From contig CAMBVX010000008.1 in assembly GCA_945871085.1 (NCBI GenBank), forward strand, positions 1-46,327: 46,327 nt of DNA. The letters are read 5' to 3'. Positions 36,322 to 46,326 of the stretch are shown here, piece after piece; position 1 is the first letter of the stretch; every line of letters starts with the position of its first letter. Made by a program: the position numbers and the translations under genes. The DNA is from Opitutus sp. GAS368. GTDB taxonomy: Bacteria; Verrucomicrobiota; Verrucomicrobiia; Opitutales; Opitutaceae. The notes under the pieces are model-generated. The model did not search any database, was not told where the DNA came from, and worked only from the letters and a program-made list of their open reading frames with translations.

Positions 36322-37665
36322 TTACCGTCGCTTTTCCGTCAACGGCAACAACACGCCACGGCGGAAGAGCGTCACCTGACTGGTGCTCGACGAGACGACG
36401 ATGGAAATGCAGTTGGCCGCCACGCTGATCGCCGCCGCCGCCGCGTGGCGACTGCCCAACCCACTGGGCAACGGGTGATCGCGATCGGTCGCCTGGATGA
36501 GACTGCCCGCCGACTCCACGACCCCATCCCCGCGAATAATAAAGGCCCCGTCGATCGAGGAAAACTCTTTCACCGTCTCATCCATGAAAGGGTTCAGGAT
36601 GTTGCGCTCCTCCTCTTTGTAACCAAAAAATGGATTGAGCACGAGCGGCTTGATGAAGGTCGCGACTTTTTCGTTGTCCCCGACGACGAAGAGACAACCG
36701 ACCGGACGACCCTCGCGGCCCTCGACGGCGAGTTCGGTGGCGACCGCGATCACCCGCTCGAGCACTTCCGGTTTCACATCCTCCGGCAAGAGGTCAGAGG
36801 TCTGGCCAGTGAGCAGAGTCTGAAACTCCCGCTCGATATCGACGACCACCAGCGTGTCGAACTGGTTGCTCCCAGTCATGCCATCGAGGCAGCAGATCCG
36901 ATCATTAAACGAAATCACGCCGCGGGTGAGGGCCACCAGAATTGCACTGCGCAATTGCGCCATCCGCTGATTCGAGAACGACCGCACCTGAATCGTCTCC
37001 GCAAACGCACGTTCATCCTCCCCCGGCTCGATCGGATTACGTGTGACGAGGATCGTCTTCAGCTTGGACTCGATCGCGCCGCGCTCGATGCCACCCACAA
37101 ACGTATCCCCAAACACCATGATCGCCCCACAATCCGCACCCTTCGCAACCCTTTCGGCCTCGCGAAACATCAGCCGGTTCACCCGATTTTGCTGGGCCTG
37201 AACAGGACGGATACCGCCGAAGCCACCGACGAGTTGCTCATGCAACGCATCCAAATCGGCGGAGCCGACCAAGCGATCGACCAATTCTTTTTCCTTCACC
37301 TGCCGCGCGATCGACGCGAGCACTTGCAGGTAGTCCCGCGCCTTCTCGCCCGCAATCAGCATCACGATCAAATGCACGCGCTCGTCCGCCAACGCACCGT
37401 CGTGGCGAATGCCGACCCGACTGCGGCCGATCGCGAGGATGTAGCGGCGACTCATCTTCACCCGCACGTGGGGGAGGGCCACCCCGAGGCCAAGATACGT
37501 CGTCATCGTGCTCTCGCGGGCGAGCAAGCCCTTGAGCAACGCCTCCGGTTTCAGGTCTGAAAAACTCCCGACGCAGACGGCGAGCAACTCTTGGAGTGCA
37601 CCTTCGAGGTCATGGCTGCGCAGGTCGATGATCCGGCCACGCGCGATGATTTTGTCGAGCCGCAT
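36322..37665 (-). CDS. PTS EIIA-like / PK_C-like / diadenylate cyclase (DAC) fusion
   Basis: 447 residues. Residues 1-150 are a PtsN/EIIA-type domain with the phosphorylatable His66 in GVALPHVRV. Residues about 160-300 resemble a pyruvate-kinase C-terminal (PK_C) domain ([27 protein letters not shown]), the arrangement also known upstream of archaeal DAC domains. Residues about 310-447 are a DisA_N/DAC domain: DGAFII at 372-377 and [11 protein letters not shown] at 404-414. Typical DACs have T-RHR; here Ser405-Arg406-His407-Ala408, and the usual VSEET is VSSST. Cyclic di-AMP synthesis is therefore plausible but not certain. No membrane segment, so cytoplasmic. It starts 48 bp after nuoA. Confidence 0.85.
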
Positions 37666-37700: not shown

Positions 37701-37717
37701 GTGACGCGGCGCGTCAC
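37701..37717. other. Perfect hairpin over the nuoA stop codon
   Basis: GTGACGC and GCGTCAC (37701-37707 and 37711-37717) form a 7-bp stem with a 3-nt loop. It covers the nuoA stop codon and has no U-tract on either side, so it is not a standard terminator. It may act on mRNA stability between nuoA and the DAC gene. Confidence 0.4.
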
Positions 37718-38088
37718 TTCTCCCACTCGAGCGCGCCCTTCTTGATTTCGTAAACTAGGCCCAAGATGAGCACGCCGATAAAAAACAAAATCGGACCGAG
37801 AATGGGGATGTGGTTGGCGAGGAATTCCCGATAGATGAAAGTCCACGGTACCAGAATCACGATTTCCAAATCGAACAACATGAAGAGCAATGCGGTGACG
37901 TAAAATTTCACCGAGAACCGCGTGTGCACGATGCCCGCGTCTGAGATGCCGCACTCGTAGGCCGAGTCTTTGATCTTCGTGTGTTTGGCCCGTTGACCAA
38001 AAAAATGGCTCGCACCGATAATAAACGCGGTGATCCCGCCCGCGAGCAGGGCCTGGATCAGAAACGGAAGATAGGCTGCGGAAGTCAT
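37714..38088 (-). CDS. nuoA: NADH-quinone oxidoreductase subunit A
   Basis: 124 residues with three membrane segments. Signature motifs are SAYECGISDAG, RFSVKFYVTALLFMLFDLE and the C-terminal LGLVYEIKKGALEW. NuoA is a small membrane subunit of complex I near the quinone site. No nuoB or other nuo gene follows within the window; downstream are the DAC fusion and rpmG. The remaining complex I genes must lie elsewhere. The start has no Shine-Dalgarno sequence (GTTAACCGAC upstream). Confidence 0.95.
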   Translation of the reverse strand: MTSAAYLPFLIQALLAGGITAFIIGASHFFGQRAKHTKIKDSAYECGISDAGIVHTRFSVKFYVTALLFMLFDLEIVILVPWTFIYREFLANHIPILGPILFFIGVLILGLVYEIKKGALEWEK

Positions 38089-44007: not shown

Positions 44008-46326
44008 TCAATCGGCCTTTACGTCGACCGGCTCCTCGTCGAATCGCGCTCGCAGCCAGATTTTGAATTTCGCGATCTGTATCGGTGCCCCAAGCACGAG
44101 CACCTCATCCCCCGCGCGCAAGATCTCTGCCGCGGTAGGATTGAGCACACGCAGGCCATGACGATTTACTCCGGCGATCTGCACCCCGTGGACCTGCGCC
44201 GGTGAGAGCGCGCTCAAGGTCCGACTGGCCGCGCGGCTCCACGGCGGCACGACCATCGCCTCCATCCGCACTTCCTCGAACAACGAATCAGCCACGGCCA
44301 CGCCCGAGACCGCCCCAAGGAACGCCTTGCCCGCGATCACTTGCTCCGCCGTGCCCAACAAGAGCACCTTGTCCCGAGGAAAAAGCACGGCCTCCGGGGG
44401 CGGGAGCGGGATCATGAATCCCTGGCGCTCAATCCCGACGACCGAGCAACCAAAACGACTCCTCAGTCCGAGCTCCGCAATTTTCTTCCCCTGGCAATCC
44501 GCCAAATCCGGCAAAGTGCAGTCGATCATATTCAGGTTCCATTCGCCGTGCGGCTGGAGCCAAGGCGCCGTCGTCGCTGTCATCTTATTATCCCCGGTCT
44601 CAATCACGCTCATCAGCTCGACCTCCATTTCACTGTGCCAATAGATCAGCTTCCGGCGCAGGACGAGCAAGGCCACCCCCGCGATGAGCGCGCTAAACAG
44701 CAGCAACCATTTGCCTTTCCCTTCCGCGGGTTGGATCGACGCCAGCCATATAAACATGCCGCCTCCCGCGAGGATTTTCAGCACGGTTTCCACCAAGACC
44801 CGCAGCCGCTTCGCGTGCGGATGCCCTTTCGTCGAAACCTCCGCGTAGAGCATAGCCATGGCCGAAACATTGCGCCAAATCGCGACCAACGGAGCGAGGA
44901 TCAGCAGCACGAGAGTCGCACTAAAGATCAGCTCGAGATCGTGCGGAAAAAGGCGACCCCGTCCGAGCCACCCTTCCGCCAGAGAAAAAAACTGCTCGGA
45001 GAAAACCACGACGCCCGTCACGAACAACATGCCCATGCTCACCTGCACGAGTCGCTTGCGACTGAGTTGCCAAAGTATGTTGCGCGCACGCCGTTGGTGG
45101 AAAACTTCCAACCACCCGTGGTAGGCTCCCACCCAATCCGCCAGCCAACGCGGTTGTCGGCTGATCACCGCTCCCGCGATCCGCTCCGAATTTCTCGTGA
45201 GCATCGGTGCCAACAACGTCGTCAGGAGCGAAACCCCGACCGCCAACGGATAAAATCGCGCCGGCACGACGGCGGCGGTCACGCCCAGCTGAGCAATGAT
45301 AAACGAAAATTCGCCGATCGGTGTGCCCGTCAACCCGGTGCGCAACGCATCCTTGAGCGGAGTGCCAATCAGCGTGAGCCCGCCCGTCACACTCAACGGC
45401 CGGGCCAGCAGGGTAAATCCCGCGACTCCGACGATCAGCCCGGCCGACGCCCACAGCTCACGCACATCAATCTGCATCCCGATCGCCACAAAAAAAACCG
45501 CGCTGAACACATCGCGCATCCCTTCGAACGTCCGCTCGACTTGATGCCGGTGCGACGTCTCCGCGATGATTGTCCCCAATAAGAACGCGCCGAGCGCCAA
45601 GGAGTATCCCGCCAGCGCCGCGACGACCGCCATGCCAAACAACAACGCCGCCAGTCCCAACGTTTGCAGTTCCTCGTCCGCCGAAACGCTCATCCGTTTC
45701 AACAACCACGGCACCAGTAACAGACCCAAAATCCCCGTCAGCACCACAAACGCCCCGAGCTGCAACAACGTCGTCCCCAGTTTCGCGCCGCCGCCCTCGC
45801 CGATCTGCATCATCGAATTCAGCAACGTCAGCATCACCACGGCGACCACGTCTTCCAGCACCGAAATCCCCATGGCCAATTGCCCGGAGCGTTCATGATT
45901 CGTCCCCGTTTCGTGCAGAATCTTCCCAATGATCGCCGAGGACGAAACCATCAACATCCCGGCCAGAAAAAGGCCTTCGGTGTGTGACCACCCGAGCGCC
46001 GCACTCAACAGCCGCGACAGGTAATACATCGTGATCGCCCCCGCAAACGTCGCCAGCATCAAACCCGGCCCCAAGCGCCTCATCTTGCGAAGACTCAGGC
46101 CCAGCCCGATCGCGAACATCAGAAACACGAGCCCCACCTGCGCCAAGGTCTCGATACTCCCCGCGTCCTGCACCAACGCGAACAGCGGAGATTTCGGACC
46201 CGCCACGATCCCCGCGACGAGAAACCCGACCACGACCGATAGCCCGCTGCGTTGGCACAACCACCCCACGACGCCTGCCACGACGAGCACCACCGCGAGA
46301 TCCTGGATGAAGTGAATTCCGTGCAT
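44008..46326 (-). CDS. CPA2-family cation:proton antiporter with two RCK_C domains
   Basis: 772 residues from ATG 46326, one base from the right edge; the natural N-terminus MHGIHFIQDLAVVL suggests it is complete. Residues about 1-390 are the Na+(K+)/H+ exchanger membrane domain, with LEDVVAVVML as the conserved helix and its acidic pair. A further membrane module (about 425-580, four segments) follows. Residues about 594-670 and 700-765 are two RCK_C/TrkA_C domains (GKKIAELGLRSRFGCSVVGI, GDEVLVLGAPIQ). A TrkA_N NAD domain is absent. RCK_C domains can bind cyclic di-AMP in other antiporters and K+ channels. Likely K+ or Na+ efflux coupled to H+ entry at the inner membrane. Confidence 0.92.
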   Translation of the reverse strand: MHGIHFIQDLAVVLVVAGVVGWLCQRSGLSVVVGFLVAGIVAGPKSPLFALVQDAGSIETLAQVGLVFLMFAIGLGLSLRKMRRLGPGLMLATFAGAITMYYLSRLLSAALGWSHTEGLFLAGMLMVSSSAIIGKILHETGTNHERSGQLAMGISVLEDVVAVVMLTLLNSMMQIGEGGGAKLGTTLLQLGAFVVLTGILGLLLVPWLLKRMSVSADEELQTLGLAALLFGMAVVAALAGYSLALGAFLLGTIIAETSHRHQVERTFEGMRDVFSAVFFVAIGMQIDVRELWASAGLIVGVAGFTLLARPLSVTGGLTLIGTPLKDALRTGLTGTPIGEFSFIIAQLGVTAAVVPARFYPLAVGVSLLTTLLAPMLTRNSERIAGAVISRQPRWLADWVGAYHGWLEVFHQRRARNILWQLSRKRLVQVSMGMLFVTGVVVFSEQFFSLAEGWLGRGRLFPHDLELIFSATLVLLILAPLVAIWRNVSAMAMLYAEVSTKGHPHAKRLRVLVETVLKILAGGGMFIWLASIQPAEGKGKWLLLFSALIAGVALLVLRRKLIYWHSEMEVELMSVIETGDNKMTATTAPWLQPHGEWNLNMIDCTLPDLADCQGKKIAELGLRSRFGCSVVGIERQGFMIPLPPPEAVLFPRDKVLLLGTAEQVIAGKAFLGAVSGVAVADSLFEEVRMEAMVVPPWSRAASRTLSALSPAQVHGVQIAGVNRHGLRVLNPTAAEILRAGDEVLVLGAPIQIAKFKIWLRARFDEEPVDVKAD

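Follow-up and report, generated by a model that had tools for sequence, protein, structure and literature searches.

A probable DacD-class diadenylate cyclase carrying PtsN-like EIIA and pyruvate kinase C-terminal-like domains in Opitutus sp. GAS368

Genomic Locus and Domain Organisation

The stretch of DNA under consideration, hereafter the window, comprises 46,327 nucleotides from Opitutus sp. GAS368 and encodes on its minus strand a protein combining a PTS EIIA domain, a segment resembling the C-terminal domain of pyruvate kinase (PK_C-like) and a diadenylate cyclase (DAC) domain (Table 1). All three are recovered in Pfam above their cut-offs, namely (i) PTS_EIIA_2 (PF00359; E-value 1.4e-16, 61.2 bits against a cut-off of 27), (ii) DacZ_P (PF21755; E-value 7.7e-30, above the curated cut-off), and (iii) DAC (PF02457; E-value 9.3e-21, 74.1 bits against a cut-off of 27). 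Homologues of full length, 41–95% identical, occur across the family and order, with the whole 447 residues aligning from end to end. As such, the first-pass annotation, which had read the three domains as parts of one protein from the sequence alone, is borne out, and the possibility it had raised that the EIIA domain belongs to a separate gene can be set aside. The joining of separate genes by a frameshift or by assembly is likewise ruled out, open frames of about 450–500 aa being found in many independent assemblies.

Table 1. Coordinates of the features discussed, in the window unless another contig is given.
Feature	Position	Strand	Remarks
EIIA-PK_C-like-DAC fusion gene	36322..37665	-	447 aa; ATG at 37665, stop at 36322; probably DacD-class diadenylate cyclase
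PTS EIIA-2 domain, residues 24-144	37234..37596	-	Pfam and model against PtsN; fold closest to PtsN/EIIANtr
DacZ_P domain, residues 160-283	36817..37188	-	Pfam and fold of pyruvate kinase C-terminal domain
DAC catalytic domain, residues 313-438	36352..36729	-	Pfam, whole-genome match, conserved residues
nuoA (NADH-quinone oxidoreductase subunit A)	37714..38088	-	directly upstream of the cyclase gene
CPA2-type cation/proton antiporter	44008..46326	-	two TrkA_C (RCK_C) domains; not adjacent to the cyclase gene
c-di-AMP riboswitch	L162:2727-2900 (G000:C452)		precedes a 643-aa Band_7/SPFH (flotillin-like) gene

A full-length AlphaFold2 model built from 69 relatives reached a mean pLDDT of 90.6, with a single weak linker at residues 152–155. 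Its EIIA part is nearest to PtsN/EIIANtr structures (TM-scores of 0.79–0.88 when normalised by target length, the best reaching 0.85–0.88), and for its DAC part the nearest structures are those of CdaA and DisA. When residues 158–300 were modelled alone (pLDDT of 87), the middle domain matched the C-terminal domain of pyruvate kinases with Z-scores of 12.6–13.6 over 113–120 residues, and the best 50 entries of the structure search were all pyruvate kinases. Since the isolated model retrieves this fold, the PK_C-like segment proposed at first pass is confirmed.

Regarding the gene neighbourhood, the nuoA-dac pair is kept in 36 of the 37 order-level loci (relatives L003–L046), the two genes lying within about 165 bases of each other in nearly all of them, and the nuoA gene beside the cyclase is the only one of the genome. 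A link of the cyclase to complex I is possible. Across phyla, no recurring neighbour family was found, nor anything pointing to a PTS or K+ partner; nuoA in the Opitutales and an acyltransferase in the Fibrobacterota are clade-specific only and were thus not retained as partners. Of note, in Pontiellaceae (L079 and L034), an amino-acid permease with a C-terminal EIIA is encoded downstream of the EIIA-DAC gene (L079:5498-7366, plus strand) and a further EIIA-containing gene lies upstream, while in Chitinispirillum a stand-alone EIIA gene (L106:4273-4776, plus strand) shortly follows the fusion gene.

Catalytic Motifs and Affiliation of the Cyclase

The DAC domain exhibits DGA at residues 372–374, where it had been located at first pass, GLGSRH at 402–407, SRHA at 405–408 and VSSST at 424–428, i.e., the catalytic motifs of DAC enzymes are present as D372-G373-A374 and R406-H407, with an alanine after RH. 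While the DAC fold and the DGA and RH catalytic columns are common to CdaA/DacA, the fusion protein differs from the latter in lacking a transmembrane N-terminus and in displaying SRHA and VSSST where CdaA has TRHR and VSEET. It was on this last difference that the first-pass annotation had dwelt; literally true with respect to CdaA, the comparison is misleading with respect to DacZ-type enzymes. Archaeal and some bacterial cyclases of the DacZ (DacY-CdaZ) type likewise possess a PK_C-like domain followed by DAC and share the same motif shape, and DacZ is the best match of the fusion protein in NCBIfam. As the PK_C-like domain is shared with DacZ/CdaZ and the DacZ model scores best, the protein is placed by its sequence in the DacZ branch; it is nonetheless set apart by the extra EIIA domain and falls outside the haloarchaeal DacZ equivalog (NF041371), scoring 115.9 bits against a cut-off of 430.

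Within 69 diverse aligned rows, D372, G373, G402, G404, R406, H407, S425 and S427 are invariant, and the catalytic columns are common to haloarchaeal DacZ. The motifs of the latter are TRHH and LSESD, the sequences GLGTRHHAAAAIT and LSESD being those of two proteins encoded on haloarchaeal plasmids and annotated as DacZ. Across the branch, RH may be followed by A, R, H, S, E, Q, T or M, and S stands throughout where VSEET has its second E. Judging from these alignments, SRHA and VSSST are normal traits of the DacZ branch, of which the DacZ of H. volcanii is both active with Mn2+ and essential (PMC6741144). Enzyme activity of the fusion protein is considered very likely.

A DacD class of cyclases has been defined (Corrigan and Gruendling, 2013, cited in Braun et al., 2019, PMC6741144), for which the citing paper gives as representatives Lacunisphaera limnophila, Puniceicoccaceae, Coraliomargarita and an Opitutae bacterium. 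These belong to the same group as the present organism, the Opitutae, where the fusion is the usual sole DAC and where named Opitutaceae are among the relatives found. Considering this taxonomy, together with a PTS domain that we presume, with some uncertainty, the DacD class to carry, the EIIA fusion probably corresponds to DacD. A literature search on diadenylate cyclase in combination with EIIA and domain architecture retrieved nothing, and neither a phosphorylation nor a cyclase assay was found in the literature consulted for the EIIA-bearing DAC class.

Cyclic di-AMP Signalling in the Genome

As the first-pass annotation had proposed, a second DAC gene was sought in the genome of Opitutus sp. 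GAS368 (95.8% complete), where none was found; as a control, the same search returned no DAC domain in the genome of E. coli. At the level of the order, 80 of 87 genomes possess a DAC, nearly always as a single ORF of about 450–470 aa. A few genomes of the order encode a further DAC ORF, namely L040 (G172:C1:3446926-3447618), which lacks EIIA and is 300 aa long, as well as G309 and G326 (322–438 aa).

The genome further encodes a homologue of the PgpH-type 7TM-HD phosphodiesterase. A c-di-AMP riboswitch (RF00379) was also detected, its score of 52.9 bits exceeding the gathering score of 38. With both of these elements accompanying the only DAC found, it is very probable that the organism makes c-di-AMP. 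The flotillin-like gene downstream of the riboswitch is, to our knowledge, an uncommon target. Such riboswitches had been predicted earlier in Verrucomicrobia (PMC6488665). The contig bearing the riboswitch is 5.5 kb long with 65% GC, and its 4-mer distance to the window (0.195) compares with 0.166–0.244 for other contigs; base composition gives no sign of a foreign origin, which is possible given a genome contamination of 4.3%. No c-di-AMP riboswitch was found beside the fusion gene at 17 loci of other groups. By its domains only, the CPA2-type antiporter of the window is a candidate c-di-AMP target; the two other genes with TrkA_C pairs encode transporters of the CitMHS/DASS type (L132) and AspT/YidE type (L135).

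Distribution and Origin of the Fusion

Beyond the order, full-length homologues are present in another class of Verrucomicrobiota at about 33% identity and, in a wider scan with one genome per species, in Fibrobacterota, Spirochaetota, Planctomycetota, Kiritimatiellae, Hydrogenedentes and one Wallbacteria genome, the Wallbacteria homologue lacking the stretch around His66. This spread exceeds the Opitutae and is not mentioned in the available part of the paper describing DacD (PMC6741144). Relatives devoid of EIIA were found in the same scan in Thermodesulfobacteriota, Nitrospinota, Tectomicrobia and some Planctomycetota. In a tree built on the PK_C-like and DAC domains (92 rows), EIIA-bearing cyclases form one clade and the presence of EIIA requires two changes, one of which is due to L039, where the gene is cut by the contig start. 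In the tree of EIIA domains, for which the stand-alone sample stems nearly all from one phylum, a branch with moderate support (SH-aLRT of 84) separates 77 fused from 23 stand-alone domains. Both trees fit a single old fusion that would have been inherited afterwards.

Phosphate Donors and Conservation of His66

The phospho-acceptor His66 sits within LPH of the EIIA-2 domain. In known EIIANtr (PtsN), the fold and active-site motif are the same, but here the EIIA domain is fused to a cyclase and the EI of the genome is of the PtsI type, lacking a GAF domain, and not PtsP. Since the genome encodes HPr as well as this EI, a phosphate donor is available for the fused EIIA; a second, stand-alone EIIA is also present. 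Of 110 rows with an EIIA domain (near-duplicates included), 99 from several phyla retain the residue, and among these 99, R50 is found in 96, E51 in 98 and P65 in all. In an order-level test set of 36 sequences, the most distant of which share about 51% identity with the protein of the window, neither P65 nor H66 varies. The phosphorylatable histidine claimed at first pass is thereby upheld for most relatives.

In the 11 remaining relatives, His66 is replaced with the DAC motifs intact, namely by Q in Fibrobacterota, Y in Puniceicoccales, S in one family of the Opitutales (f3) and K in one row, while R50, E51 and P65 are mostly kept. Considering the starred branches of the tree, the state of His66 must have changed at least four times. 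Loss of the PTS as the cause is ruled out, as EI and HPr are still encoded in 10 of the 11 genomes, EI being absent from that of L103 alone. In family f3, the EIIA domain is the most diverged (27–32% identity, against 45–55% in relatives); two members of one genus (L032 and L033) have lost the phospho-histidine and other members (G102, G328 and G346) lack a DAC. The divergence of EIIA together with the missing DAC suggests a decay of the system in this family, which would then offer a natural series for such decay. The loss in Fibrobacterota does not look like decay. These repeated losses show that phosphorylation is dispensable in some relatives.

Proposed Mechanism and Alternative Explanations

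DAC catalysis occurs in transient face-to-face dimers (PMC11066881), so that an attached domain can tune a DAC through its assembly. On this basis, it is proposed, at slightly better than an even chance, that PTS phosphorylation of EIIA tunes c-di-AMP synthesis by the sole detected DAC via its assembly, the PK_C-like domain probably providing a second input. Phosphate from PEP would pass through PtsI and HPr to His66 of the PtsN-like EIIA, whose phosphorylation state would alter the assembly or contact of DAC domains and, in turn, the rate at which this DacZ-branch enzyme would convert two ATP into c-di-AMP upon face-to-face contact between two DAC domains. The messenger would then act on its receptors, including the riboswitch preceding the flotillin-like gene, and thereby on K+/osmotic and membrane functions. 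Strong confidence attaches to the enzyme activity, moderate confidence to phosphorylation of His66, and weak confidence to an effect of EIIA phosphorylation on the cyclase and to its direction; by likeness to dephospho-PtsN acting on K+ transporters, we lean towards dephospho-EIIA raising c-di-AMP. As to the PK_C-like domain, a probable metabolite-binding input, its counterpart in pyruvate kinase binds FBP. An archaeal relative bound FMN (PMC6741144).

The repeated loss of His66, with intact DAC motifs and mostly in genomes that retain EI and HPr, and the character of the loss in Fibrobacterota indicate that EIIA probably also has a role independent of phosphorylation. Such a role might be all there is, EIIA anchoring the enzyme in an oligomer or at a partner and the histidine being a remnant or lineage-limited; the pocket mostly kept in His-less relatives agrees with this, as does the EIIA domain, which in every pair compared has diverged faster than DAC, but the retention of His66 in most rows of several phyla, always together with P65, and the invariance of both residues in the order make it rather unlikely. 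Information could also flow in reverse, the cyclase or its occupancy by ATP or c-di-AMP governing the binding of EIIA as an output arm on transporters. PtsN does bind TrkA, KdpD and YcgO (PMC13104625; PMC11808508), and the fused EIIA has a PtsN-like fold. However, the gene lacks a recurring transporter partner beside it, and catalysis resides in DAC, the only source of c-di-AMP detected, by which this arrangement is deemed improbable.

That the DAC is degenerate and makes no c-di-AMP, in line with the altered or lost activity considered at first pass, would be drawn from the departure of SRHA and VSSST from the motifs of CdaA. This suggestion finds no support, because the motif shape is common to haloarchaeal DacZ and the whole DacZ branch, including the active and essential enzyme of H. 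volcanii (PMC6741144), and because the genome holding this sole DAC also holds the riboswitch and the PgpH homologue; it is regarded as highly improbable.

Significance

Judging from the literature consulted, what appears new here is the breadth across phyla, the fold evidence for the PK_C-like domain, the repeated loss of His66, the pairing of nuoA with the cyclase gene and the co-occurrence of a riboswitch in the genome. The signals controlling c-di-AMP synthesis are largely open, and PtsN and c-di-AMP have been studied separately as regulators of K+ homeostasis. In E. coli and other proteobacteria, K+ transport is under PtsN, via TrkA, KdpD and YcgO (PMC13104625; PMC11808508), while K+ is under the control of c-di-AMP in Bacillus and others, according to the abstracts of PMC7857571 and PMC7900238; c-di-AMP is absent from a 2026 review of PTSNtr (PMC13104625). 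As each controls K+, the fusion would join two regulators of one process; a PtsN-like domain fused to a cyclase would constitute a direct physical link and allow a simple in vitro test. The PTS domain at the front of the enzyme suggests a messenger level that would be set directly by carbon or energy status. Whether PTS phosphorylation so sets c-di-AMP, linking it to PEP/pyruvate status in about six phyla while the PK_C-like domain supplies a second metabolic input, is evenly balanced; if true, carbon-energy status would be coupled to c-di-AMP inside one protein family.
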